Shown piece after piece: positions 37,456 through 49,536 of a stretch of DNA of 64,000 bases. Origin of the DNA: Balneolaceae bacterium. Its GTDB lineage: Bacteria; Bacteroidota; Rhodothermia; Balneolales; Balneolaceae. The notes under the pieces were generated by a model, which saw only the letters and a program-made list of their open reading frames with translations, was not told the DNA's origin and did not search any database. The stretch is from contig JAEPNO010000001.1 in assembly GCA_017643365.1 (NCBI GenBank), forward strand, positions 248,001 through 312,000, read 5' to 3'. Made by a program: the position numbers and the translations under genes. The number at the start of each line of letters is the position of its first letter. Position 1 is the first letter of the stretch.

Positions 37456-37953
37456 ATGAAAAAGGCATTTTTAATTTTACTAATTTTCATTTTTCCGGCA
37501 ATAAGTCATGCTCAGGAGAGTACAGAACTTAGAGCAGAGGTAAATATTAATGCACAAATAATTAGATCAATTGATCTGATTACAATAAATACCATGACCT
37601 TTGGTAATGCTCAGCCTGGGCAAGAGAGACTTTACGTAAATCCAATTAATGACGTAAATTCTGGATTTATGGTAGCATTAGGCACACCGGGTGCTGCATT
37701 CCGACTTGATTATTTAAATGAACGAAGACTTACACAAATTGACGGGCCGGGTTTTTTAATTTTCAGATACGAACTTTCTGGAAATTCTGTTGAAGAACAA
37801 TCTTCTTCTGAATTACTTGAGGTTGTAAACCGTAACCTTCAATTTAATAATGAAGGAAGATATTATTTTTGGGTTGGCGGTGAAGTAAACATTGAAAATG
37901 CTCTCCCAGGTAATTATGAAGGTGATTTCACTATTGAAATAGACTATATATAA
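37456..37953 (+). CDS. DUF4402-like pilin subunit 1
   Basis: A 165-aa exported beta protein with signal peptide MKKAFLILLIFIFPAISHAQ. The N-terminal region (LRAEVNINAQIIRSIDLITI, then MTFGNAQPG) and C-terminal strand match the DUF4402 family, which occurs as pilin subunits with chaperone-usher systems. The C-terminus is GNYEGDFTIEIDYI: a Gly 14 residues from the end and a penultimate Tyr, with alternating hydrophobics, as in classical chaperone-recognised pilins. A ribosome site (AGAAGAGG) precedes the ATG at 37456. Its stop overlaps the start of the next pilin by one base (TAATG). It is one of four such subunits here, likely minor. Confidence 0.75.
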   Translation: MKKAFLILLIFIFPAISHAQESTELRAEVNINAQIIRSIDLITINTMTFGNAQPGQERLYVNPINDVNSGFMVALGTPGAAFRLDYLNERRLTQIDGPGFLIFRYELSGNSVEEQSSSELLEVVNRNLQFNNEGRYYFWVGGEVNIENALPGNYEGDFTIEIDYI

Positions 37954-38543
37954 TGTATCAAAAAGTAATTTTAATATTACTACTTACAATTACTCATGTT
38001 AATTTATATGCTCAAGAATTAAACTTTGGTAGCGACTATAGCTCAATATATTCTGTTTCTATATCTGATTTAAACCCAGGATTGGATCTTGATTTTGGCT
38101 TGCTAGCTAAAAACGAAGGAGTCAGTAGCTTATCAATGAACGAAAGCAAAGTAATTTCAATTGAAGGTGTTCGATATCTTGATGTTTATGTAGAGATCAT
38201 GGCTGATGAGTATTTACTGAAAGATGGAAACCCGTCTTGCGCAACTAATCCAAGTTGCAGAATTCCATTTACTTTACAGGCTGCTTATGCTAACCGAGGG
38301 CAAAATAATACCGCACAAAGCACAATCATGAACGTGTTAAGCTTTACAGCTACTGCTCTTTTCCCCATAAAATATAGAGGGAATGCACCGCCCGGCCCAC
38401 CTCCTACCCCTGTTTATTCTGGCTACAACCCGGCACTTTTTAACGAAACTGCCTACTTATATATATACGGTTCTATCAATGTGGGTAATGTTGATGCTGG
38501 AAGTTACACTTCAGATATCACCATAACTGTATCTTATGACTAG
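37953..38543 (+). CDS. DUF4402-like pilin subunit 2
   Basis: A 196-aa exported beta protein with signal peptide MYQKVILILLLTITHVNLYAQ. It has NPGLDLDFGLLAKNEG near the N-terminus, a Cys pair (NPSCATNPSCRIPF) that could form a disulfide, and the C-terminus GSINVGNVDAGSYTSDITIT then VSYD, with Gly at -14 and penultimate Tyr. It overlaps the previous gene by one base and the next by eight, so the three small pilins are translated as one unit. Probably a minor or tip-proximal subunit; the Cys pair sets it apart. Confidence 0.72.
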   Translation: MYQKVILILLLTITHVNLYAQELNFGSDYSSIYSVSISDLNPGLDLDFGLLAKNEGVSSLSMNESKVISIEGVRYLDVYVEIMADEYLLKDGNPSCATNPSCRIPFTLQAAYANRGQNNTAQSTIMNVLSFTATALFPIKYRGNAPPGPPPTPVYSGYNPALFNETAYLYIYGSINVGNVDAGSYTSDITITVSYD

Positions 38544-39066
38544 AATAAGATCATATGTAGGGTTTATCATTTTATCTGTTTTATTCAACAGTAGTGCAAG
38601 TGCTCAATTTTTAAATTTTCAAATATCCATTGAACCTGAATTGAGTGCTACCGTTGAACGAGAGCTTAATTTTGGAACAGTTATTACAAATTCCGGCGAA
38701 AAGTATATCGATTTAGGGGATGTTGATATGGGAATATTTAGAATAAGAGCGTATTACACTCAAAATATCTTTGTTTCATTTACCCCCCCAGAAGCTTTAA
38801 GACACATAAACCCTTCTGTTGATGAAGAAATACAACTAGATTTAAACATCGCTTATAATAATATATCACGCAATGTAAGAGATGCTTTAATATTAGATGA
38901 TAATATTGGTTTTCTATCTTTTGACAGTAATTTTAATGTAAACACTGCACGTACATCCGATGTTTGGGAAGAAATTGAATTATACGTTTACGGCTCAATA
39001 AATGTAGGTAATATACCAAACGGTATTTATGAGGGTAATGCAATATTGAATATAGATTATGATTGA
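38536..39066 (+). CDS. DUF4402-like pilin subunit 3
   Basis: A 176-aa exported beta protein with signal peptide MTRIRSYVGFIILSVLFNSSASAQ. Family landmarks: IEPELSATVERELNFGTVIT at the start of the mature protein and VYGSINVGNIPNGIYEGNAI then LNIDYD at the end, again with Gly at -14 and penultimate Tyr. It overlaps the previous gene by eight bases. A 110-base gap with no strong hairpin separates it from the fourth pilin, which probably has its own transcription start. The role is likely a minor subunit of the same fibre. Confidence 0.72.
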   Translation: MTRIRSYVGFIILSVLFNSSASAQFLNFQISIEPELSATVERELNFGTVITNSGEKYIDLGDVDMGIFRIRAYYTQNIFVSFTPPEALRHINPSVDEEIQLDLNIAYNNISRNVRDALILDDNIGFLSFDSNFNVNTARTSDVWEEIELYVYGSINVGNIPNGIYEGNAILNIDYD

Positions 39067-39176: not shown

Positions 39177-39701
39177 ATGAAAAAGCTTAATCTTTTATCC
39201 GCCTCATTACTTGCTTTAGTACTTACTTTTAATGCTAATGCACAAACTTCAGATTCAGATAACATTTCTGCAACTGCTACTGTAGTAGGTGCAATTTCTG
39301 TAACTCCTGTTGATGCACTTGATTTTGGAAGCATTTTATCATCCGAAACTCCAGCAATTGCTGCTACCGATGCAAACTCAGGTTCAGCAACCATTACTGC
39401 AGAAGATGGACAAGTTGTTAATGTAACTGTTACATTTCCAACAACATTAACTGGTTCTTCAGGAAGTTTAACTCTTGGAACATTCGATGTAAACGTTGAC
39501 AATGATGGTGCCGTTCGCGCTGGTTCTGCCGACTTAACTGGTGAAGCAATTACTGGTACTAATAGTGAAATTTATGACGGTACATACACTGCTTCAGGTA
39601 CAACTGCTACTATCTTTGTAGGTGCAGCGATTACTACTAACAGTGGTGTTGCCGGTGTTGATTACTCAGGTAACGTATCTGTTGCTGTTGATTACAACTA
39701 A
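39177..39701 (+). CDS. DUF4402-like pilin subunit 4, probable major shaft pilin
   Basis: A 174-aa exported protein with signal peptide MKKLNLLSASLLALVLTFNANAQ and a low-complexity, Thr/Ser/Ala/Gly-rich acidic mature part without Cys. It follows the DUF4402 pattern (VVGAISVTPVDALDFGSILS at the start, GVDYSGNVSVAVDYN at the end); penultimate Tyr is kept and the Gly is one residue off (-15). It is set apart from the other pilins by 110 bases upstream and by a strong intrinsic terminator 26 bases downstream, the arrangement expected of the highly expressed major subunit. That is inference from context. The gene is followed by chaperone and usher. Confidence 0.75.
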   Translation: MKKLNLLSASLLALVLTFNANAQTSDSDNISATATVVGAISVTPVDALDFGSILSSETPAIAATDANSGSATITAEDGQVVNVTVTFPTTLTGSSGSLTLGTFDVNVDNDGAVRAGSADLTGEAITGTNSEIYDGTYTASGTTATIFVGAAITTNSGVAGVDYSGNVSVAVDYN

Positions 39702-39727
39702 TTAAAAAGTAATTAGTATTAATTACA

Positions 39728-39762
39728 CCCCATTAATCTGTTGATTAATGGGGTTTTTTTTT
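39728..39762 (+). terminator. Intrinsic terminator after the fourth pilin
   Basis: A perfect 11-bp stem, CCCCATTAATC (39728-39738) and GATTAATGGGG (39743-39753), with loop TGTT is followed by nine T (39754-39762). It would end or attenuate the pilin transcript ahead of the chaperone-usher genes. Confidence 0.88.
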
Positions 39763-39788
39763 GACATTTTTTTGATATAGAATAATAA
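39761..39788 (+). promoter_or_regulatory. Candidate sigma70-type promoter for the chaperone-usher-motor genes
   Basis: TTGACA (39761-39766) and TAATAA (39783-39788) are 16 bases apart, and the ATG of the chaperone gene is 52 bases downstream. The -35 element overlaps the T-run of the terminator, so the downstream genes could be restarted there. Promoter consensus in this phylum differs from E. coli, so the call is tentative. Confidence 0.35.
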
Positions 39789-39839
39789 TGTGATTTCTAT
39801 CTTTGTTTTTAAGTATTTTACTCGAAATAATCTTCAGAC

Positions 39840-40685
39840 ATGTCTATTACTATATTAAAACGGGTTACACTTACAATTGCGTTTGTGTTGCTTTGCACAA
39901 ATCTTAAAGGGCAAGTTACCATCGCCCCAACTAATATGTTCTTGAGCGACAGTAATCCTTTTGGAACATACATGGTTATTAATGGTTCGAGCGAAGCACA
40001 GGAAATTTCAGTCGATTTTCTATTTGCTTATTCTGCAACCGATGAAAATGGTAATCGAAGAATAATTCAAGATGATTCCACCTTTGCAGAGAATCATTCA
40101 ATTGCTAATAAAGTAAGGGCGTTCCCTCGCAACTTCACTTTAGCACCTGATCAGCGTCAAATTGTTCGGTTAAGATTATCTGACACAAATAGTCTTGAAG
40201 ATGGTACTTATTGGGCTAGAATTAGAACAAAATCGGTTCCAGAAACTCCACCAATCGAGGTTCAAAATACTACCACTGTTTCAGCTAGAGTTGGCATTAC
40301 CTTTGAGCAAGTAACTGGCTTATTCTTTAAAAAAGGTAATGTAACAACAGGTATTGATATTAAAGACATCAAAACTGAAATTAATGCGGAAAACCAAAAT
40401 GAGTTGATTGTACTTGCTGATTTTGATCGTACAGGCAATTCACCATTTCTTGGAACAATTACTATGTCTATTCGTGATTCTAATAATCGTGAATTAGTTT
40501 CTGACTTTGTTTCAACATCACATTATTTTGGTGGTACTCACCGTCAGACACTAGATATATCTAGTCTAACCAATGGAAACTATCAACTAACCGTTGAGTT
40601 TGCTACTAAAAGAACTGACGTTTCTGAAGCTGATTTAGTAAGAATGCAACCCGTAAGAAAATCAATATCATTCACTAAAAATTGA
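39840..40685 (+). CDS. Periplasmic PapD-like pilus chaperone
   Basis: A 281-aa exported protein with signal peptide near 5-24 and two Ig-like domains. The chaperone pattern reads VTIAPTNMFLSDSNPFGTYM at the N-terminus, then RAFPRNFTLAPDQRQIVRLRL (the P...F.L.P...Q..R pattern of strand F), YWARIRTKSVPE, VSARVGITFEQVTGLFFKKG at the domain boundary, and a C-terminal Ig domain. It would bind pilins in the periplasm and hand them to the usher. The Arg used by PapD to grip the pilin C-terminus is not obvious (N is found near that site), so it is a divergent member. It overlaps the usher start by four bases. Confidence 0.8.
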   Translation: MSITILKRVTLTIAFVLLCTNLKGQVTIAPTNMFLSDSNPFGTYMVINGSSEAQEISVDFLFAYSATDENGNRRIIQDDSTFAENHSIANKVRAFPRNFTLAPDQRQIVRLRLSDTNSLEDGTYWARIRTKSVPETPPIEVQNTTTVSARVGITFEQVTGLFFKKGNVTTGIDIKDIKTEINAENQNELIVLADFDRTGNSPFLGTITMSIRDSNNRELVSDFVSTSHYFGGTHRQTLDISSLTNGNYQLTVEFATKRTDVSEADLVRMQPVRKSISFTKN

Positions 40686-43678
40686 TCAAAAGAAAATTAT
40701 CTCGGTTTCTTTCTTTTCTTTCAATAATACTTTTCACACAGTCATTATCTAATCTTTCTTATTCTCAATCAAACGACCCCTTTGAAGTTTATTTAGATTT
40801 TAATCATAGGGGAATCATTAACACTGTAGTTATTAGCTACTATGCTGACGATACCTTCTACCTTCCCGTTAATGAGATTTTTAATTTATTTAATATCGAA
40901 GCTGACTATGATGGTTTAACCATTAGCGGAAGATTTTCAAGTGAACAAATTGAATATTCTATAAATCTTGAACGTCAGGTTATCGTTTTTGGTAATGAGA
41001 GCTATAAGCTTGAGGTAGAAGATTACTATTTAAACGAATTAGATGTCCACTTACCCATCAGATTATTTTCTGAAATATTCGATTTAAATTTTAGTGTTGA
41101 TTTCAATCAGCTTTTGCTAAACCTAGAAACTAATGTTGAACTCCCTATCATTCAACAGGCTTTAAGAAATCAAGAGCGTAGAATTTCTAATACTACTGTA
41201 ACAACTCCAAGATATCCTCTTTATCAGTCCCGCTCCTCAAATAAATTAATCGACTTGGGTTTCTTAGATTATGGTGTTCAATACAATACAGACGGTAACG
41301 AGCAAATTTTGAACATTAGTAATTCTATTGGATTAAATTTACTTGGTGGTGACTTAAGTGGTAATGTATTCGCAAATATTAATAATCAAATCTCATCTTA
41401 CGAAACAGATAATTTAAGATGGGTTTATACCTCAACTGAAACTCCATTGTTTACCAATATTAGTATTGGTCAACTCAATTCAGACGGTGTATTAATGTCG
41501 CCATATATGGGGATCAGAGTATCAAATGAACCCATTATACCAAGAACTTTATTTGATGAGTTTGAGGTATCCGGTACAGCAATTCCTCAATCTGAAGTTG
41601 AGTTATATTTAAATAACAGATTAGTTGGATTTTCAAGAATTGATGATTCAGGTAACTACCGTTTCTTGATTCCAATTTCGTACGGGAACTCACAAATTGT
41701 GCAAAAAATTTATGGTCCAACTGGGCAAGTGAAAGAACAAAATACACGACTTCAAATACCATTTAACTTTGTACCCAAAGGAGAAATCAATTATAACCTC
41801 AATATTGGACAATTAAATAATTTTATTATTGGTTCTACCCAGGTAAATAATATTGGGCAATTTAATACGAGTGTTGGTATTACTAGTTGGCTTACCGCAA
41901 AGCTTGGTGTAGAAAACTATTATAATGATTCATCTAATAATACGTTTTTTACAAGTACAATTTCTTCAAGAATTAATACAAATAATATTTTCACTCTCGA
42001 GGCAGTTTCTGATAGCTATCTACGTGGATCATTAAACTCAATTTTTCCAAATTCGACCAGCTTAGGAATCGATTATGTTAATTATAAAAACAACTCAAAT
42101 TTCTATAATCAATCGAATTATAATTGGCAGTTAGTTACTACCACTTTTATACCGTTTAAGTTAGGGAGCGTTCCATTAAACGTTCGAGCTTCGAGTTTTT
42201 TAAGAAAAAGAGAAACCGGATATTTCAATACACTAAGATTTGATTTAATAAGCAGAATTAAAAGATTAAGCTTTAGGACCAGTTATAGTGATCAACAAAT
42301 AGATGAATTTAATCCGTTTAATTCATCAAACTTATCTAAAATAGAATCATCAGCTAGCTATTCTTTTGAAAGATCAAGAGAAACCTTACAGTTCTTTAGA
42401 GGAGCTACTCTTAGGTCGCAGCTAGTTTATTTTATTGGAATAAATGAATTTAAATCTGCAGAATTATTCTTTACTAAAAACGTCTCTGAAAATGGACGAT
42501 TTCAAATATCTGTAGGAAGAGATTTTAGCGGGGACTTTAATACTATTCGGTTTAATCTCATATTTAATTTTAAAAATTTCAGGTCAAATACTACTTTTAA
42601 TAGTTTAAGAGGTGCTTACAGTGTAGCCCAGAGCCTAAGAGGCTCTATTGGCTATGATAGTAATACCAATAACATATTATTCTCAAACAGAGATCAGGTT
42701 GGTAGAGGGGCATTATCAACAAGAATGTTTTTAGACAATAATAATAATAGAGTTTATGATAAAGATGTTGACGAAATCATCCCTGAAGTTTCGTTACGAA
42801 TAGACCGAAGTGGTACAAAAACGGAAAGTAAAAATAATGTGATTTATAACTCATTGATTCAGCCAAATATTAGGCTAAACGTTGAAGTAAATAAAGCAAC
42901 CATTAAGAATCCAATGCTTGTACCCGAAGTGGATAAGTTTTCGATTATTACTGAACCAAATAAGTATACATCTGTTGATATTCCATTTTTTCAGGCTGGA
43001 GTTATTGAGGGAATTGTGGAAAGGCAATTTGAAGATGGAGTAACAGATGGAATTGGTGGTCTTAAAGTTCTTTTAACATCTCAAAAAGATAATACTGTTA
43101 AAGAACTTCGCACATTTTCTGATGGAAGTTTCTATGATTATCCACTACCACCTGGTAAGTACACCTTACAAGTTGATAACCAACAATTATCTTTTTTACA
43201 AGCTACATCTAAACCCGAAAAAATAGATTTTGAAGTAGAAGCGGTGACAAATGGTGACTTTATAGAAGGCTTAAGTTTTGTATTAATTCCTGATGCTGAT
43301 GCCGAACAAGATCAACAAACAATCCAAGAACAGATCACCATCGCGCAGGTAACCGACGAGATCAAATCGTCGCCTGAAATATTAGAATATTCTCAGGAAG
43401 TATTTAAAGAGGTGGATGATGCATTACGACTTATAATTCATGCGCAGAACGCATTTTATTCCAATAACATAGACCTAGCCTTCCGATTTGTGAGCGAATC
43501 ATTAGAACTTTTTGAAACTGCACAAGGACACGCTTTAAAGGGAAGTTTTTATTATTTTGAAGGTAATATCGACCAGGCGCAGCGACATTGGGAACAAGCA
43601 CTCCGGTTTAATCCTGATTTAGTAATACCAGATATGGAATTACTGGAAGAACGGGTTAATAGGCGTGCATCAGACTAA
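40682..43678 (+). CDS. Outer-membrane usher with C-terminal TPR tail
   Basis: A 998-aa outer-membrane usher that would secrete and polymerise the pilins; classical ushers are 800-850 aa. Start TTG 40682 overlaps the chaperone stop (TTGA), indicating translational coupling; signal peptide FLSFLSIILFTQSLSNLSYS. After an N-terminal domain (DPFEVYLDFNHRG...FYLPVNEIF) comes a beta-barrel with a plug-like segment near 297 (SGTAIPQSEVELYLNNRLVG, GNYRFLIPI), then FLDNNNNRVYDKDVDE near 683, a carboxypeptidase-like C-domain (GIVERQFEDGVTDGIGGLKV), and an extra C-terminal helical tail, about 912-995, with TPR character (AQNAFYSNNIDLAFRFVSES, ALKGSFYYFEGNIDQAQRHW). The tail resembles the TPR protein at 45537-46064. 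Three 60-base lines in this gene count 32, 22 and 38% G+C, against 45% for one line in pdhB. Confidence 0.8.
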   Translation: MIKRKLSRFLSFLSIILFTQSLSNLSYSQSNDPFEVYLDFNHRGIINTVVISYYADDTFYLPVNEIFNLFNIEADYDGLTISGRFSSEQIEYSINLERQVIVFGNESYKLEVEDYYLNELDVHLPIRLFSEIFDLNFSVDFNQLLLNLETNVELPIIQQALRNQERRISNTTVTTPRYPLYQSRSSNKLIDLGFLDYGVQYNTDGNEQILNISNSIGLNLLGGDLSGNVFANINNQISSYETDNLRWVYTSTETPLFTNISIGQLNSDGVLMSPYMGIRVSNEPIIPRTLFDEFEVSGTAIPQSEVELYLNNRLVGFSRIDDSGNYRFLIPISYGNSQIVQKIYGPTGQVKEQNTRLQIPFNFVPKGEINYNLNIGQLNNFIIGSTQVNNIGQFNTSVGITSWLTAKLGVENYYNDSSNNTFFTSTISSRINTNNIFTLEAVSDSYLRGSLNSIFPNSTSLGIDYVNYKNNSNFYNQSNYNWQLVTTTFIPFKLGSVPLNVRASSFLRKRETGYFNTLRFDLISRIKRLSFRTSYSDQQIDEFNPFNSSNLSKIESSASYSFERSRETLQFFRGATLRSQLVYFIGINEFKSAELFFTKNVSENGRFQISVGRDFSGDFNTIRFNLIFNFKNFRSNTTFNSLRGAYSVAQSLRGSIGYDSNTNNILFSNRDQVGRGALSTRMFLDNNNNRVYDKDVDEIIPEVSLRIDRSGTKTESKNNVIYNSLIQPNIRLNVEVNKATIKNPMLVPEVDKFSIITEPNKYTSVDIPFFQAGVIEGIVERQFEDGVTDGIGGLKVLLTSQKDNTVKELRTFSDGSFYDYPLPPGKYTLQVDNQQLSFLQATSKPEKIDFEVEAVTNGDFIEGLSFVLIPDADAEQDQQTIQEQITIAQVTDEIKSSPEILEYSQEVFKEVDDALRLIIHAQNAFYSNNIDLAFRFVSESLELFETAQGHALKGSFYYFEGNIDQAQRHWEQALRFNPDLVIPDMELLEERVNRRASD

Positions 43679-43679
43679 A

Positions 43680-45521
43680 ATGCACAGAATACGTCACATA
43701 TATGCCTCTATGCATGCTAAAATTCAACCAAATTTTGGCCTGACATTCCTTTCTTTTGTATTTCTCGTTGCTCTTCTTTTACTCCCTTTCGAAAATGTTC
43801 GCTCTCAAACTTCTTACGATGCATCTAGCTCACAGTCGCTAGATTTACGAGTTTCTAACTTAGAACAGCAATACGACTCCCAAATCATTCAAATTCTTTC
43901 TAACTACTTTAACAGAAAGAAATTCTTTATCGATGTTAACATAAACGCTGAATTAGTTGAACAAACTATTGGTACAACAAGTAATCAAGTAGTATCAAAT
44001 AGCCAACCCGAAGAAAATCTGATGATGCCCGGGTTACCCTTTTTACCCCAACAAAACTTAAGGCAACCTACCCGTCGAAACACTCAACCACAAACGGTTG
44101 TAAACGAAAATACGATCAAAACACTGCGGATTGTAAACATGAGTGTTAACATCTATGCAGATACTTCGATTACTACCGCACAACTGGAGTTGATGCGCTT
44201 TATCACGGGAATTGCTGTAAAGGTAAATGAAAACCGCGGCGATGAAATCAACATCAATCAACTTGCAATCCCCGACTATACCGAAGCACCTGAACCTGTT
44301 ACAGCCACAACGGTAACCCAACCGCCTGCCCTTCCCGATTACAACTCGATATACACGTATATTCCTGCCTTAGCGCTCATGTTACTATTTGGGTTAACCT
44401 TGCTGTTCAATCGAATCATGAACAAGCCTCAGCCTCAAATGCCGATGCGGGATTTCAGAGAATCGTTTAAAAATGATATGGCTTTTCAGCAACAGGCTGC
44501 ATCACAAACTGCATTAAGCACTTCTACTGATGAAAGAATAGAAGAAACGGAAGAAGACTTATCAGCTGAAGAACTTGTAAATGCATTCTTTACCAAGCCC
44601 GATGAAATCGCCACTATTTTTAGATATTGGTTAAGCGAAGAGGAAAACGGAGCTAAAAAAGCAGCTGAATATTTAGTTGCCGTAGATAAACACTTGCTCA
44701 GAACGTTGAAAAAAGAACTGCACCCAGAAGATTACGATACGTTGACGGATGCAGTTATAGAGCAGGAAAAACTATCACCGGAAAAACGTGCAGAAATTAT
44801 TCAGGAATTCGGTCGTATGCTTCAGCAAGGAGCTAAACAAACCGTTACTGAAAAGAAACGAAGTAAGTTTTCTTTGTTTAAATTTTTGGATCATATTTCA
44901 GACAAGCACATCCTTACTTTGCTTGAAACAGAGGATAGTTTATCGGGGGCGTTTATTCTGCAATATATTCCCGATGATAAAGCTGCCATTTTGATTGAGA
45001 AACTGGATAAAGAAATTGCTGCTAAAATCATGCTTCATATGGCGTCGTTGAATAATCTTACGAACGAACAGCAGCATAAAATTTCATCCGAGCTTTTTGA
45101 TAAAGCGATGGATCTTGTTGAGGCAGAACGTAGCGAACAATACGGTGCAGAGCATCTCTATCCTATTCTTGAGCGTCTTCCGGTTAATGAACAACAACGA
45201 TATATTGATGAGCTTAAAGCAACCGGTTCTATAGTAGGTGCAATTCTTGAGAAGCAGTTTATCACAATTGATAAATTACCGGAATTAAGCGACGAAGTGA
45301 TTAAGAAAGCTGTTCGAACTTTAAATACCGAAACCTTATTAGATGCAATTTTTGGCCTTCCACCCCAAGTTGTTGATCGAATTTTATCTGCACGACCTAA
45401 GCGCGAGCAACGGTTATTGCGAATGGAATTAGATGAGCTTCAAGGAACCTCAGGTCGCCAAACAGAATATGCCAAAGCCTTGTTGATGAACTCAATTCGA
45501 AAGAATGCAAATGACCAATAG
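43680..45521 (+). CDS. FliF-like/FliG-like fusion protein (putative rotor)
   Basis: A 613-aa protein whose halves recall FliF and FliG. An N-terminal hydrophobic segment (NFGLTFLSFVFLVALLLLPF) is followed by a periplasmic part with FliF C-region character: IIQILSNYFNRKKFFIDVNI, then LRIVNMSVNIYADTSITTAQ and VNENRGDEININQLAIPDY. A TM helix at about 227-246 leads into a cytoplasmic part with three FliG-like blocks: N (from ~297, EELVNAFFTKPDEIATIF; LSPEKRAEIIQEFGRML), M (from ~402, ILQYIPDDKAAILIEKLD; AAKIMLHMASL) and C (from ~530, LSDEVIKKAVRTLNTETLLD; PKREQRLLRMELDELQ, whose charges parallel the FliG torque helix). ATG 43680 follows the usher stop by one base; an in-frame GTG at 43665 is less likely. 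The EHPQ motif of FliG is degenerate. FliG homology is my reading and needs profile confirmation. Confidence 0.72.
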   Translation: MHRIRHIYASMHAKIQPNFGLTFLSFVFLVALLLLPFENVRSQTSYDASSSQSLDLRVSNLEQQYDSQIIQILSNYFNRKKFFIDVNINAELVEQTIGTTSNQVVSNSQPEENLMMPGLPFLPQQNLRQPTRRNTQPQTVVNENTIKTLRIVNMSVNIYADTSITTAQLELMRFITGIAVKVNENRGDEININQLAIPDYTEAPEPVTATTVTQPPALPDYNSIYTYIPALALMLLFGLTLLFNRIMNKPQPQMPMRDFRESFKNDMAFQQQAASQTALSTSTDERIEETEEDLSAEELVNAFFTKPDEIATIFRYWLSEEENGAKKAAEYLVAVDKHLLRTLKKELHPEDYDTLTDAVIEQEKLSPEKRAEIIQEFGRMLQQGAKQTVTEKKRSKFSLFKFLDHISDKHILTLLETEDSLSGAFILQYIPDDKAAILIEKLDKEIAAKIMLHMASLNNLTNEQQHKISSELFDKAMDLVEAERSEQYGAEHLYPILERLPVNEQQRYIDELKATGSIVGAILEKQFITIDKLPELSDEVIKKAVRTLNTETLLDAIFGLPPQVVDRILSARPKREQRLLRMELDELQGTSGRQTEYAKALLMNSIRKNANDQ

Positions 45522-45536
45522 ATGTTCAGGTGATTC

Positions 45537-46064
45537 ATGATTAATAGGCCTGCTTTACTGTTGTTTTTATTTTTTAGCATTTTCATTCTTCACTGCTCTT
45601 CCAGCATTCAAGCTGTTGATCCGATTCCCGAAGAAAACACTCTTTCTCTAGAAGATTCCTTACAAATAGCACTGCAGGACAGCATTGATCAAGCACAGGC
45701 TAAAGAAGAAGAGCTTCGCAATGCGCTAATTGAATTATATAAAGACGAAATTTATTCGCGGTATCAAGCCCAAGCTAATACACTCACCAATTACTACATT
45801 TTAGCCCAACAGCATTTTTACTCGGGTGATTATGAAAATGCATTATTTCTTATCAATCGAGCCGCGCTTATCAAAGAAAATGCGGATGTTCTTGCATTGC
45901 GAGGTAGCGTTTACCTTGGTTTAGGATATATCAATGAATTTGTAAATCATTGGAGACGAGCCCTTGAATTGGACCCCGAAGTTCCCATACCTTCTTCAAC
46001 ATATATCATTCAACAATTGCAGAACAATGGTCTAATCGACGAAAACTTAAAAAAGAGTTTCTAA
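45537..46064 (+). CDS. TPR-like lipoprotein or exported protein
   Basis: A 175-aa protein with signal sequence PALLLFLFFSIFILHCSSSI; the Cys could be lipidated, although His at -1 is unusual for a lipobox. After an acidic coiled-coil-like part (SLQIALQDSIDQAQAKEEEL) the C-terminal half has TPR-type helices: YYILAQQHFYSGDYENALFL, VLALRGSVYLGLGYINEFVN, HWRRALELDPEVPIP. The same pattern (AQxxFYSxNxxxAxxxxxxS, ALxGSxYYxxGxIxxxxxHW) is the C-terminal tail of the usher. It sits 15 bases after the FliG-like gene and 6 before the MotA-like gene, and so is a probable envelope linker between outer-membrane usher and inner-membrane motor. That role is inferred. Confidence 0.68.
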   Translation: MINRPALLLFLFFSIFILHCSSSIQAVDPIPEENTLSLEDSLQIALQDSIDQAQAKEEELRNALIELYKDEIYSRYQAQANTLTNYYILAQQHFYSGDYENALFLINRAALIKENADVLALRGSVYLGLGYINEFVNHWRRALELDPEVPIPSSTYIIQQLQNNGLIDENLKKSF

Positions 46065-46070
46065 CCCTGA

Positions 46071-46868
46071 ATGCGTACATCAATTCTAAATATTCTATGT
46101 TTTCTTATCTCTTTAGTAGTACTGGTGTGGGGTGCGCTACTTGTTACAGGGTATACCCAATATGATCTAATTCCTTCTAGATTAGCATTCTTGAATATCC
46201 CAAGCCTTGCTATCGTTTTCGGGGGTATCACCGCTAGTGTATTTATTAGTTACCCGTTTAATAGCGTAGTTAAAGCGCTGGTTGAAAGCACCAAACTCTT
46301 TTCCTATAGTACCATCACCCATGAAGTGCTGGAAGAAGACATCCAAAGAGTGATGGATTGGCAGAAGATGATCAAACAAGATAAATATGCGGCAGTGAAT
46401 CAATTAAGCGAAGAATATGCTGATCGATTCGAAGGCTATTTATTCTCCATTCTCGACACCAATTACGACACTGAAGATTTACGCGAGCTTGGCGAAATCA
46501 ATATCGAAGAAAATTATAGTCGCCAGCAGATGGTAAATCAGATAATTGCCAGTATGGGTAAAACCTCACCGGTTTTTGGTATGCTGGGTACACTTTTTGG
46601 GTTGATTGTGATCTTATCCGGATTTAGTGAAGTGGAATCATTATTAAGTGGATTAGGAGCTGCTTTAATGACAACATTGTATGGAATCCTGATCGGAAAC
46701 TTCATTTTCACACCTATGGCTAAGAAGATGAACAATGTTGCCTCACTTCGATATTTTAGAGAGAAGCTAATTCTGGAGGGCATCATTCTTATCGAAGAAC
46801 AAAAAACATCTCTACAAATTTACGATAAGCTACAGGCACATATGCGCCGCAACAAAAATATGCTTTAA
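46071..46868 (+). CDS. MotA/TolQ/ExbB-family stator subunit, MotA-like
   Basis: A 265-aa inner-membrane protein of MotA layout: TM helices at about 6-26, 42-62, 165-188 and 195-216, with a ~95-residue cytoplasmic loop between the second and third and a cytoplasmic tail. SLAIVFGGITASVFISYP matches the MotA helix 2 signature (SLxIVxGGTxxAxxISxP), and MGKTSPVFGMLGTLFGLIVI matches helix 3. The two conserved prolines are present at P167 and P215, spaced as in E. coli MotA (P173, P222). These position the ion path with the MotB Asp. The long loop and size favour MotA over ExbB/TolQ/GldL. Placed six bases after the TPR gene and ten before MotB. Confidence 0.88.
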   Translation: MRTSILNILCFLISLVVLVWGALLVTGYTQYDLIPSRLAFLNIPSLAIVFGGITASVFISYPFNSVVKALVESTKLFSYSTITHEVLEEDIQRVMDWQKMIKQDKYAAVNQLSEEYADRFEGYLFSILDTNYDTEDLRELGEINIEENYSRQQMVNQIIASMGKTSPVFGMLGTLFGLIVILSGFSEVESLLSGLGAALMTTLYGILIGNFIFTPMAKKMNNVASLRYFREKLILEGIILIEEQKTSLQIYDKLQAHMRRNKNML

Positions 46869-46878
46869 GTGGGTTGGT

Positions 46879-48762
46879 TTGAAGAAAAAGAAACCCATAC
46901 GGATTAAATACTCCCTTTTTCCGATCCAAGATGAAGAATCGGAAGATGATGATAGCTGGCAAGTTAGCTACCTCGATATCATTACGATCGTTTTAGGATT
47001 TCTGATCATTCTCCTTTCTGTCTCTCAAATTACTAAATCAGAATTCTCTTCCCTTTCCTCAATATTTGGGAAACTTGCGGATGAAACGGAGTTTCTAACC
47101 ACACCAATTGGTGCTATTGAAAGCGAGTTATTCGAACTGCTTCAGTCTGAAATAGAAGCCGGTAATCTTGAGATTATTCGCGATTTAAATGACTTGAGAA
47201 TTCGTTTTAAAAGTGATGATTTATACGAACCGGGTAGAGCGACCTTTGATTCTGAATCGGAGCAGCTATTGAATACGGTGCTTATTGCTTTACAGCAATT
47301 GGAATACAACGATTTCAGTATTGATGTTGAAGGTCACACCGATAACACCCCAATCTCGTCGGTTGCTTATCCATCGAATTGGGAGCTGTCAACAGCCCGG
47401 GCGGCCAATGTAGTTAAATATTTTAATGATTCTGGAATACCGGCCAATCGTTTGAAAGCATCCGGTTATGCGGATTCTCGCCCTGTTATTGAATACGATT
47501 CCTTAGGTTTTCCTTTTGCCGCGAGTAAGGATAAAAATCGTCGGGTAGTACTTCGACTTTATTATTCTTCGGATAATCTGAAAGAAGAAATTCTAACTCA
47601 GCCTGAAACAGAACAAGAATTGCTAGCTGAAGAAACCAACCAAAGTGAAAGTATTGAAGGCGTAATCCCGGAAATCTCTGATCTCCCTCCTCCTGCTCAA
47701 ACTGAGAATGTTGTTGTATTAGCGGATCAACCGGCATTGCTAACGGTGATGGAAGAAAATCGAATTCAAGAGCAACTTGAAGCAGAACGTGCTGCTGCAG
47801 AACAACGATCTCAGGAAACGGAATCAGAGCCTCAAACTCGGAATAACGAAGCTCGACCAGAGACAACTACTCCTGTTGATACACCGACTGAAAATCAGAC
47901 TGAAAGTGAGCCTGAAGTTACTCAACCAGTGCAAGAACAAATAACAGAACCGGAGCCCGAACCTGCTCCCCCACCAGCGCCTACAAACGCAATGCCTTCG
48001 TTGCTTAAAGTGGATGCACGTTGCCAGTACTCCGTGCAATTAGGCGAATATGGTTCTTTGCAAAACGCATTTCAACGTGCTGAGTCGATAGAGTCTTCAA
48101 ACCTCTCTGATATCATGCTAACTTATAATACTAATGAGTACTCGGTTCGAACTGCTCCCATTTCTTCGTTCTCAGAGGTTTTATCGCTACGTGATGAGCT
48201 TTCAACACGATTTAATGATAAGAACGTGAGTGTGGTGCATCAGTGCTACAATAATACCATAAAGCGCCCGAAAGCAGTGAGGTATCTAATTCAGTTCGGC
48301 GCTTTTCAGAATCGTGCTACTGGTTTGGATTACACCATTGAGCTACTAGATCAATATGGTGTTCAGGCTTATATGAACCGGGTTTCAGATACTTTTAACG
48401 TGTTAACTGGACCTTATGAGTCGAGAGAAGAAGTATTAAGCCAGTTACGAGCTTTCCGCGAAATGGGAATTTCATCTAATCTCTTTATCCGCCATCAACC
48501 GGAAACTGCTGCACCCTATAAATATGCATATCAGATAGAAGTTGCTCAGCGTAACTCTCAACAGGAAGCAAATGAATTAGCGCAACAAGTGCGCTCAAGA
48601 ACCGGAATAAATACTCGAGTTGAAGAACTTGTATCCGGGCGATTTTCTGTAATGACGGGGCAGTCAGTAAATAAAAACGAAACTCAGACAATTTTCAATC
48701 GCCTGTTAAACTCTGGCTTTTCAATAGATCCCGTGATCTTTTATCTAGAGTATATTCCTTAA
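46879..48762 (+). CDS. MotB-like stator subunit with OmpA and three SPOR domains
   Basis: A 627-aa stator partner. Start TTG 46879, basic N-terminus, then a single TM helix WQVSYLDIITIVLGFLIILL with the ion-binding Asp at D33 (YLD, the position of MotB D32). A plug/linker (SSIFGKLADETEFLTTP) is followed by an OmpA peptidoglycan-binding domain at about 110-235 (IDVEGHTDNTPISS, WELSTARAANVVKYF, NRRVVLRLYY). A Glu/Pro/Gln-rich linker (about 240-375) leads to three SPOR domains, starting near 382 (CQYSVQLGEYGSLQNAFQRA), 468 (YLIQFGAFQNRATGLDYTIE) and 548 (YAYQIEVAQRNSQQEANELA). SPOR domains bind denuded glycan strands. The combination would anchor the stator doubly. Typical MotB is about 300 aa; the extension is unusual. 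It is the last gene of the run. Confidence 0.87.
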   Translation: MKKKKPIRIKYSLFPIQDEESEDDDSWQVSYLDIITIVLGFLIILLSVSQITKSEFSSLSSIFGKLADETEFLTTPIGAIESELFELLQSEIEAGNLEIIRDLNDLRIRFKSDDLYEPGRATFDSESEQLLNTVLIALQQLEYNDFSIDVEGHTDNTPISSVAYPSNWELSTARAANVVKYFNDSGIPANRLKASGYADSRPVIEYDSLGFPFAASKDKNRRVVLRLYYSSDNLKEEILTQPETEQELLAEETNQSESIEGVIPEISDLPPPAQTENVVVLADQPALLTVMEENRIQEQLEAERAAAEQRSQETESEPQTRNNEARPETTTPVDTPTENQTESEPEVTQPVQEQITEPEPEPAPPPAPTNAMPSLLKVDARCQYSVQLGEYGSLQNAFQRAESIESSNLSDIMLTYNTNEYSVRTAPISSFSEVLSLRDELSTRFNDKNVSVVHQCYNNTIKRPKAVRYLIQFGAFQNRATGLDYTIELLDQYGVQAYMNRVSDTFNVLTGPYESREEVLSQLRAFREMGISSNLFIRHQPETAAPYKYAYQIEVAQRNSQQEANELAQQVRSRTGINTRVEELVSGRFSVMTGQSVNKNETQTIFNRLLNSGFSIDPVIFYLEYIP

Positions 48763-48779: not shown

Positions 48780-49193
48780 TCACTTATCGAGTATTAATAA
48801 CAACTCTTCAGGTGAATAAATGGGTAATTTAGCTTTTACAAAATCCTTTTTATTTCTACTTACAATTCCATCAAGATTTGTATGTACTGCTGACTGATAC
48901 AAAACTGCGTCTTCGTAGTCACTAAACATTAATTCAGTAGCCTCTTCCAGAACTACCCTACTTACTGATGCAATATTGAACAGAGAAAGTATTTTTTTGA
49001 TCGCCAAATTTGCTGTCTTTCTATTCGTCTCTTTTTCTACTAAATAATAAATAGTAGTAATAGTAGTTGCTCCCAGCCATCCAACTAATACTTGTTGTTC
49101 AACCACAGCAACCAATGCTGAAGAAAACTTAAAATGCGGTTCGCGTTTTAATAAAACATCCAAGATGATGTTGGTATCAAAGAGGATATTCAT
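48780..49193 (-). CDS. PIN-domain toxin (VapC-like)
   Basis: A 137-aa PIN-domain ribonuclease, probable toxin of a type II toxin-antitoxin pair. The N-terminus MNILFDTNIILDVLLKREPH contains the first catalytic Asp (D6) with the DTN motif; further acidic residues lie in YYLVEKETN, SDYEDAVLYQSA and TNLDGIVSRNKKDF, fitting the four-acid PIN active site. Length is typical. Its start overlaps the antitoxin stop by four bases (ATGA on the minus strand), so it is translated downstream of the antitoxin. The pair faces the motor operon tail to tail, 17 bases away. Confidence 0.88.
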   Translation of the reverse strand: MNILFDTNIILDVLLKREPHFKFSSALVAVVEQQVLVGWLGATTITTIYYLVEKETNRKTANLAIKKILSLFNIASVSRVVLEEATELMFSDYEDAVLYQSAVHTNLDGIVSRNKKDFVKAKLPIYSPEELLLILDK

Positions 49194-49435
49194 TTCAAAT
49201 ATTTGTCGTGTAAATGGCTTCTATAGTCCTTTTCATCTAGTTTTGAACCCTTCACTACACCACTTAACGATTGCGTGACTGGAGGAAGATTTTCGATAAG
49301 TGGATCAATTTCCGAGTCGATTGCTTTGAAATAGTCTGCTACCAATTTTGAAACCGATGTACCATTTTTAGTAGCATATTTTTTTGCCCGTTCAATCAGT
49401 TTCTTTTCAATTCGTAAAGTGAGTTTATCAGACAT
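49190..49435 (-). CDS. Antitoxin of the PIN pair (DUF6364-like)
   Basis: An 81-aa protein whose N-terminus MSDKLTLRIEKKLIERAKKY with KNGTSVSKLVADYF is a ribbon-helix-helix DNA-binding pattern as in DUF6364-type antitoxins; the C-terminal tail (VVKGSKLDEKDYRSHLHDKY) would wrap the toxin. I chose the ATG at 49435 over the in-frame start at 49444. RHH antitoxins usually repress their own operon, so the AT-rich 49436-49500 stretch is the likely operator. The gene order is antitoxin then toxin. Confidence 0.82.
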   Translation of the reverse strand: MSDKLTLRIEKKLIERAKKYATKNGTSVSKLVADYFKAIDSEIDPLIENLPPVTQSLSGVVKGSKLDEKDYRSHLHDKYLK

Positions 49436-49536
49436 GACGTACAATTAATTATTTTCTATACGTCAATTTATAGCAATGCTCTTTGAATCTCAACTTAGAA
49501 TATGAGTCATTCACTGTTTAGTTAGAGCCATTCCAT

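Follow-up and report, generated by a model that had tools for sequence, protein, structure and literature searches.

The pili built by chaperone–usher systems count as passive fibres that are assembled without an energy source, and FliF/FliG rotors count as flagellar parts. The locus described here raises the question of why genes of both kinds lie in one cassette, and why the cassette includes a MotB-like stator subunit that carries three SPOR repeats behind its OmpA-type domain. We will use the term MotB-SPOR for this subunit, FliFG for the FliF–FliG fusion encoded upstream of it, and the window for the whole stretch of 64,000 nucleotides from a Balneolaceae bacterium that has been analysed.

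Organization of the cassette

The cassette reads fimbrial subunits–chaperone–usher–FliFG–TPR lipoprotein–MotA–MotB-SPOR, with all genes on the forward strand and MotB-SPOR as the last of them (Table 1). The same order, from the subunits to MotB, has been found in every neighbourhood read. Its frames are open throughout and its functional residues are conserved across 37–83% identity in several genera, which makes a relic or a decaying cluster without function a scarcely credible reading; the patchy distribution of the cassette is the one observation that would favour it.

Table 1. Features of the cassette in the window
Feature	Position	Strand	Remarks
Fimbrial-subunit-like protein	37456..37953	+	Weak DUF4402
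Fimbrial-subunit-like protein	37953..38543	+	Weak DUF4402
Small secreted protein beside the subunits	38536..39066	+	Conserved; no Pfam match
Fimbrial-subunit-like protein	39177..39701	+	Weak DUF4402; variable between species
Terminator-like hairpin	39727..39754	+	Precedes the promoter-like match, upstream of the chaperone gene
Promoter-like match	39761..39789	+	11 of 12, best of the region, just before the chaperone gene; such matches overall not more frequent than in shuffles
Candidate periplasmic pilus chaperone	39840..40685	+	281 aa; conserved gene directly before the usher
Outer-membrane usher (FimD/PapC fold) with C-terminal TPR domain	40682..43678	+	998 aa; TPR about aa 895–992
FliF–FliG natural fusion (predicted rotor)	43665..45521	+	Signal/TM, RBM3 + collar 52–203, TM 229–252, FliG N-M-C 327–618
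TPR protein, probable lipoprotein	45537..46064	+	Lipobox by eye; profile also matches the usher C-terminus
MotA-like stator subunit	46071..46868	+	Pfam MotA_ExbB E 6.6e-17
MotB-like stator subunit (MotB-SPOR)	46879..48762	+	TM helix with channel Asp33, plug, OmpA domain, linker, three SPOR repeats
OmpA-type peptidoglycan-binding domain of MotB-SPOR	47224..47499	+	aa 116–207; Pfam E 2.5e-15
SPOR repeat 1 of MotB-SPOR	48019..48246	+	aa ~381–456; alone against the SPOR profile E 1.1e-3
SPOR repeat 2 of MotB-SPOR	48277..48483	+	aa 467–535; alone against the SPOR profile E 8.7e-7
SPOR repeat 3 of MotB-SPOR, degenerate	48517..48738	+	aa 547–620; alone E 0.06; hhalign to repeat 2

The surroundings of the cassette hold further genes. 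A small gene pair on the opposite strand (48780–49444) resembles, by eye, a PIN-domain toxin and its antitoxin. On the other side, the segment 32138–36960 encodes small proteins in two paralogous sets of three. They have a hydrophobic helix at the N-terminus and look pseudopilin-like by eye, one of them carries DUF4900, and they are kept beside both motor and motor-less ushers. Just upstream, the segment 12468–32040 encodes three large surface proteins of 2523, 1200 and 2683 aa that carry the sorting tails of type IX secretion (TIGR04183), and other carrier loci also have very large open reading frames at this place.

The stator subunits and the SPOR array

The open reading frame of MotB-SPOR is intact, begins with TTG and encodes 627 amino acids. 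The protein follows the pattern of MotB stators, with a single N-terminal transmembrane helix in which the channel aspartate is kept, a plug (Pfam MotB_plug, aa 19–63, E 2e-7) and an OmpA domain. Its best score against the curated flagellar MotB equivalog of NCBIfam, 141.8 bits, does not reach the cut-off of 283. In the accompanying MotA, the channel proline P167 is invariant, and MotP and stators related to it score best among the curated relatives, though none comes near its cut-off.

A preliminary description of this DNA, made from its letters alone, had read the protein as a MotB-like stator with an OmpA domain and three SPOR domains, and Pfam, hhalign and eight orthologues bear this out. 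The SPOR domains had been placed in residues 382–625, and SPOR profile matches are indeed found there. For the whole protein, SPOR (PF05036) scores above its cut-off (E 1.3e-12) with two stretches passing; scanned singly, repeats 1 and 3 fall below the Pfam cut-off, and repeat 3 alone is weak. Aligned with hhalign, repeat 3 matches repeat 2 with E 9.5e-14 (prob 98), and repeat 1 matches repeat 2 with E 1.7e-6. The only two cysteines of the protein (382 and 456) lie one on each side of repeat 1, and a disulfide around this repeat is possible. The acidic Pro/Glu/Gln linker of the preliminary description is present at about residues 232–378 (20% E, 14% P, 10% Q), but its length varies among the orthologues and it is nearly absent in one of them (L042).

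That description had proposed a check of other MotB homologues in the phylum for SPOR domains. All eight of the close orthologues aligned share the three repeats. On the other hand, a more distant family (L051 and L073) has the order usher–FliFG–TPR–MotA–MotB with a MotB lacking SPOR, so the SPOR domains are not essential to the usher-linked motor arrangement.

A glutamine equivalent to FtsN Q251, which is required for septal localisation (PMC6895207), has been seen by eye in all three repeats. The remaining glycan-binding positions are, also by eye, partly lost, so glycan binding by the repeats is plausible. The preliminary description had suggested either a position of the stator at septa or poles or a firmer anchorage. 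It is very probable that the SPOR array acts as an additional anchor to peptidoglycan. Alternatively, its main role could be the placement of the stator at denuded division glycan, confining the appendage to new poles. Denuded glycan, to which SPOR domains bind, is enriched at septa (PMC6895207), and the retained glutamines would agree with such targeting. However, the match to SPOR is strong for repeat 2 only, some of the other binding residues are lost, and a firm anchorage would account equally well for three degenerate repeats next to an OmpA anchor. Septal targeting is possible and compatible with the explanation preferred below, but it is not needed for the data and is unlikely as the main role of the array.

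The FliF–FliG fusion

All three FliG domains of the 618-residue FliFG have been matched by Pfam. Against known structures, the profile of the family finds FliG with E 6.6e-30 and FliF with E 1.4e-3. The predicted model has a low overall pTM (0.32) with confident individual domains. In this model, residues 52–203 match the RBM3/collar fold of FliF (Z 13–14, several entries with an rmsd of 1.9–2.0 over 99–102 residues), and residues 327–618 match the FliG fold with Z 14.3. The predicted fold thereby follows the FliF-type pattern of RBM3 and beta-collar followed by a transmembrane helix. Since FliF RBM3/collar and FliG matches lie in one polypeptide, the protein is a natural, shortened FliF–FliG fusion.

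The fusion differs from its flagellar counterparts in several respects. PF01514 (YscJ_FliF, covering RBM1-2) has no match in the nine cassette genomes without a flagellum described below, and in genome G000 it matches the flagellar FliF only, not FliFG. The score of FliFG against TIGR00207 (FliG) is 49 bits, below the cut-off of 226.7. The motif EHPQ, by which FliG binds FliM, is visible in the flagellar FliG of this genome, and none has been seen in the FliFG alignment; this agrees with the absence of FliM/N from the nine genomes. On the other hand, R580 and E588 of FliFG occupy the places of the torque-helix charges R281 and D289 of FliG, which are reported to contact MotA (PMC7564593). Judged by the conservation of MotB Asp33, MotA P167 and FliFG Arg580 and Glu588, the motor parts look functional.

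The usher and its companions

The predicted fold of the 998-residue protein (mean pLDDT 82) finds only FimD/PapC entries among its top matches, with a Foldseek E of 1.8e-29. Against FimD its Z score is 24.6, compared with at most 16 for unrelated porins, and the barrel, plug and C-terminal domains are all present in the predicted fold. The Pfam usher profile PF00577 has been matched in four of 30 relatives. A sequence search of the PDB returned no match for this protein or for the 281-residue candidate chaperone. As a result, the identity of the usher rests on its fold. PapD is not matched by the sequence of the candidate chaperone, which is probably the chaperone of the system nevertheless, with the small secreted proteins, some of which match DUF4402 weakly, as its subunits; gene position is the main basis of this assignment.

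Other members of the wider usher group have unusual ends. The usher reading frame of L051 (L051:6893-11494) is 1533 aa long and has about 560 extra N-terminal residues. Distant relatives in a Moraxellaceae locus (L089:9794-12934) and an alphaproteobacterial locus (L088:9692-13036) end in domains of wall-binding type, SPOR and AMIN.

Distribution and independence from the flagellum

Ninety-two Balneolaceae genomes have been searched, counting as clear FliFG orthologues those with E below 1e-100 to the FliFG of the window. Such orthologues are present in 15 genomes. Every one of the 15 lies directly downstream of a TPR usher; the complete ushers have about 1000 residues, and the usher of genome G168 is cut by the contig end. 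FlhA is absent from nine of the 15 cassette genomes, all nine at least 98% complete, and neither FliM/N, nor flagellin, nor a canonical FliF domain has been found in the same nine. In the genome studied here, the FliF, FliG, MotA, MotB and FlhA of the flagellum are encoded at a locus of their own on contig C50. Because of this separate locus and the nine cassette genomes without a flagellum, the cassette is not part of the flagellum.

The candidate role of MotB-SPOR as a flagellar stator has been rejected on the same two grounds, the separate flagellar MotA/MotB and the 9/15 cassette genomes without a flagellum. The corresponding alternative, in which MotA and MotB-SPOR serve the flagellum and their neighbourhood is incidental, draws on the fact that the host genome is flagellated and that both proteins belong to the stator family. 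It is refuted for the nine genomes, and it is very improbable in general, because the cassette has its own FliF–FliG rotor and an invariant gene order with the usher.

Exchange of TPR and SPOR tails

The C-termini of the usher family carry a TPR region related to the TPR protein, a SPOR array, or neither; among the ushers examined, none carries both. In the named genome loci, all 16 TPR ushers are followed by FliFG, compared with none of the six SPOR ushers for which over 8 kb downstream are available. A quick maximum-likelihood tree, built from the usher core, requires at least eight changes of the TPR label on well-supported branches. In the closest pair of TPR and SPOR forms (L093/L104), identity is 67–94% over the first 800 residues and drops to about 20% past residue ~878, a sharp exchange point.

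The SPOR arrays of MotB and of the ushers are homologous (E down to 5e-27), and each array is closer to the arrays on the same carrier. An origin of the usher array by one deletion, fusing the usher to the SPOR end of MotB, has been rejected, since MotB arrays resemble each other more than they resemble usher arrays, even where the usher barrels are close. A whole-module swap fits this pattern better. The pattern is read most simply as an exchange of two modules behind the same usher barrel, a motor module (TPR tail, FliFG, TPR protein, MotA and MotB-SPOR) and a passive one (the SPOR tail of the usher).

All SPOR proteins known up to 2019 were reported to act in division or morphogenesis (PMC6895207). 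The homologous SPOR arrays on motor-less ushers point to a function in anchoring the appendage rather than in division. The array would thus be the wall anchor of the appendage system, on the usher when passive and on the stator when motorised. Such an arrangement would make sense if the usher, or the fibre it carries, had to move with respect to the wall.

Proposed mechanism

We propose that a compact rotary motor, distinct from the flagellar one, is probably dedicated to a chaperone–usher appendage, with MotB-SPOR as its stator, anchored in the peptidoglycan. Support for such a dedicated motor is good, and its output is a matter of inference. MotA and MotB-SPOR would let ions through and exert a push on the FliG part of FliFG, which would build an inner-membrane ring with the RBM3/collar facing the periplasm. 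The stator would be held to the wall by its OmpA domain and three SPOR domains. The usher would be freed from the wall, unlike the ushers of motor-less relatives, which have a SPOR anchor of their own. The ring would be linked to the usher in the outer membrane and to the fibre, with the TPR lipoprotein and the TPR tail of the usher as the probable connection, which is suggested by homology and co-occurrence. This step counts against the explanation because the ring would have many subunits and the usher is a single protein. The motor may finally turn or crank the appendage, or power its assembly.

A more specific version holds that a flagellar-related FliFG/MotAB motor spins or cranks the pilus through the usher, and that this module and a passive usher form with a SPOR anchor have replaced each other at least eight times. 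We regard it tentatively, as slightly short of an even chance. A rather unlikely alternative is energised assembly without rotation, in which MotAB/FliFG would feed ion-motive force to the usher for subunit export or for fibre extension and retraction in a GldLM-like manner. The motor genes share an operon with the secretion pore itself, the same upstream genes are found with and without the motor, and GldLM of Flavobacterium is described as a proton-driven motor for secretion and gliding (PMC8986121). However, the same usher barrel occurs without a motor in many close relatives, which implies that export as such needs none, and a FliF/FliG ring with conserved torque residues exceeds the needs of an ExbBD-type energiser.

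If the dedicated motor exists as proposed, a conserved operon joining an usher and a FliF/FliG rotor in species without a flagellum would represent a new class of motorised appendage. Its rotor would be a natural minimal one, consisting of one fusion protein plus MotAB and no FliM/N switch. The cassette bears on the origin or reuse of flagellar motors, and the repeated exchange of TPR and SPOR would provide a clean genetic handle on what the motor adds.

Comparison with known systems

The cassette shares with the flagellar motor (MotA5B2 stator, FliF MS-ring, FliG C-ring) a stator pair with channel aspartate and plug, the FliF RBM3/collar fold and a full FliG with torque-helix charges. Unlike in the flagellar motor, FliF and FliG form one protein without FliF RBM1-2 and without a visible EHPQ, the stator has SPOR repeats, and the motor is encoded with an usher, in nine genomes without the FlhA export gate, FliM/N, flagellin or canonical FliF. 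Single polypeptides with FliF followed by FliG have been described as an engineered Vibrio FliFG (PMC11481574) and as a Salmonella fusion-deletion mutant (mentioned in PMC9389320). These are laboratory or mutant flagellar proteins, whereas the FliFG of the cassette is natural, conserved, shortened and outside the flagellum.

The likeness to chaperone–usher pili of the FimD/PapC kind lies in the usher barrel, plug and C-terminal domains of the predicted fold and in a chaperone-sized protein with small subunits in one operon. Unlike FimD/PapC, the ushers of this family are extended at the C-terminus by a TPR or SPOR tail, and at the N-terminus they have a part that lies beyond the aligned region. 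Archaic, Csu-like pili are presumably among the closest chaperone–usher systems, and we know of no need for an ion-driven motor in ordinary chaperone–usher pili. To our knowledge, GldLM, the motor of gliding and type IX secretion, has neither a FliF/FliG rotor nor an OmpA-type MotB. The cassette resembles it in having an ion-driven motor of 5:2 type for a non-flagellar surface or secretion machine (PMC8986121 and PMC9389320), but the partner of the cassette motor is an usher. Finally, MotB-SPOR shares the SPOR domain family and a periplasmic location with the division proteins FtsN, DamX, DedD and RlpA. Unlike in these proteins, the SPOR domains of the cassette family sit on an ion-channel stator or an usher, three in tandem and partly degenerate. 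No description of MotB-SPOR, usher-SPOR or usher-FliG systems has been found in the open-access literature, a coverage that excludes preprints and most subscription journals; within it, the parts are known and the combination matches no known kind found.

Related arrangements

The same genome encodes a second non-flagellar FliFG fusion on contig C33 (L010:9532-17659), together with a TPR protein, MotA and a MotB without SPOR. Here a 361-aa protein, by eye a CsgG/FlgO-type domain with an outer-membrane barrel, replaces the usher, and this arrangement is conserved in L044-L049. A third arrangement, TPR–MotA–MotB–FliFG without an usher, occurs in another family of the phylum (L052:7809-11902 and L053:8139-12214), so that non-flagellar FliFG motors seem to form a wider class.
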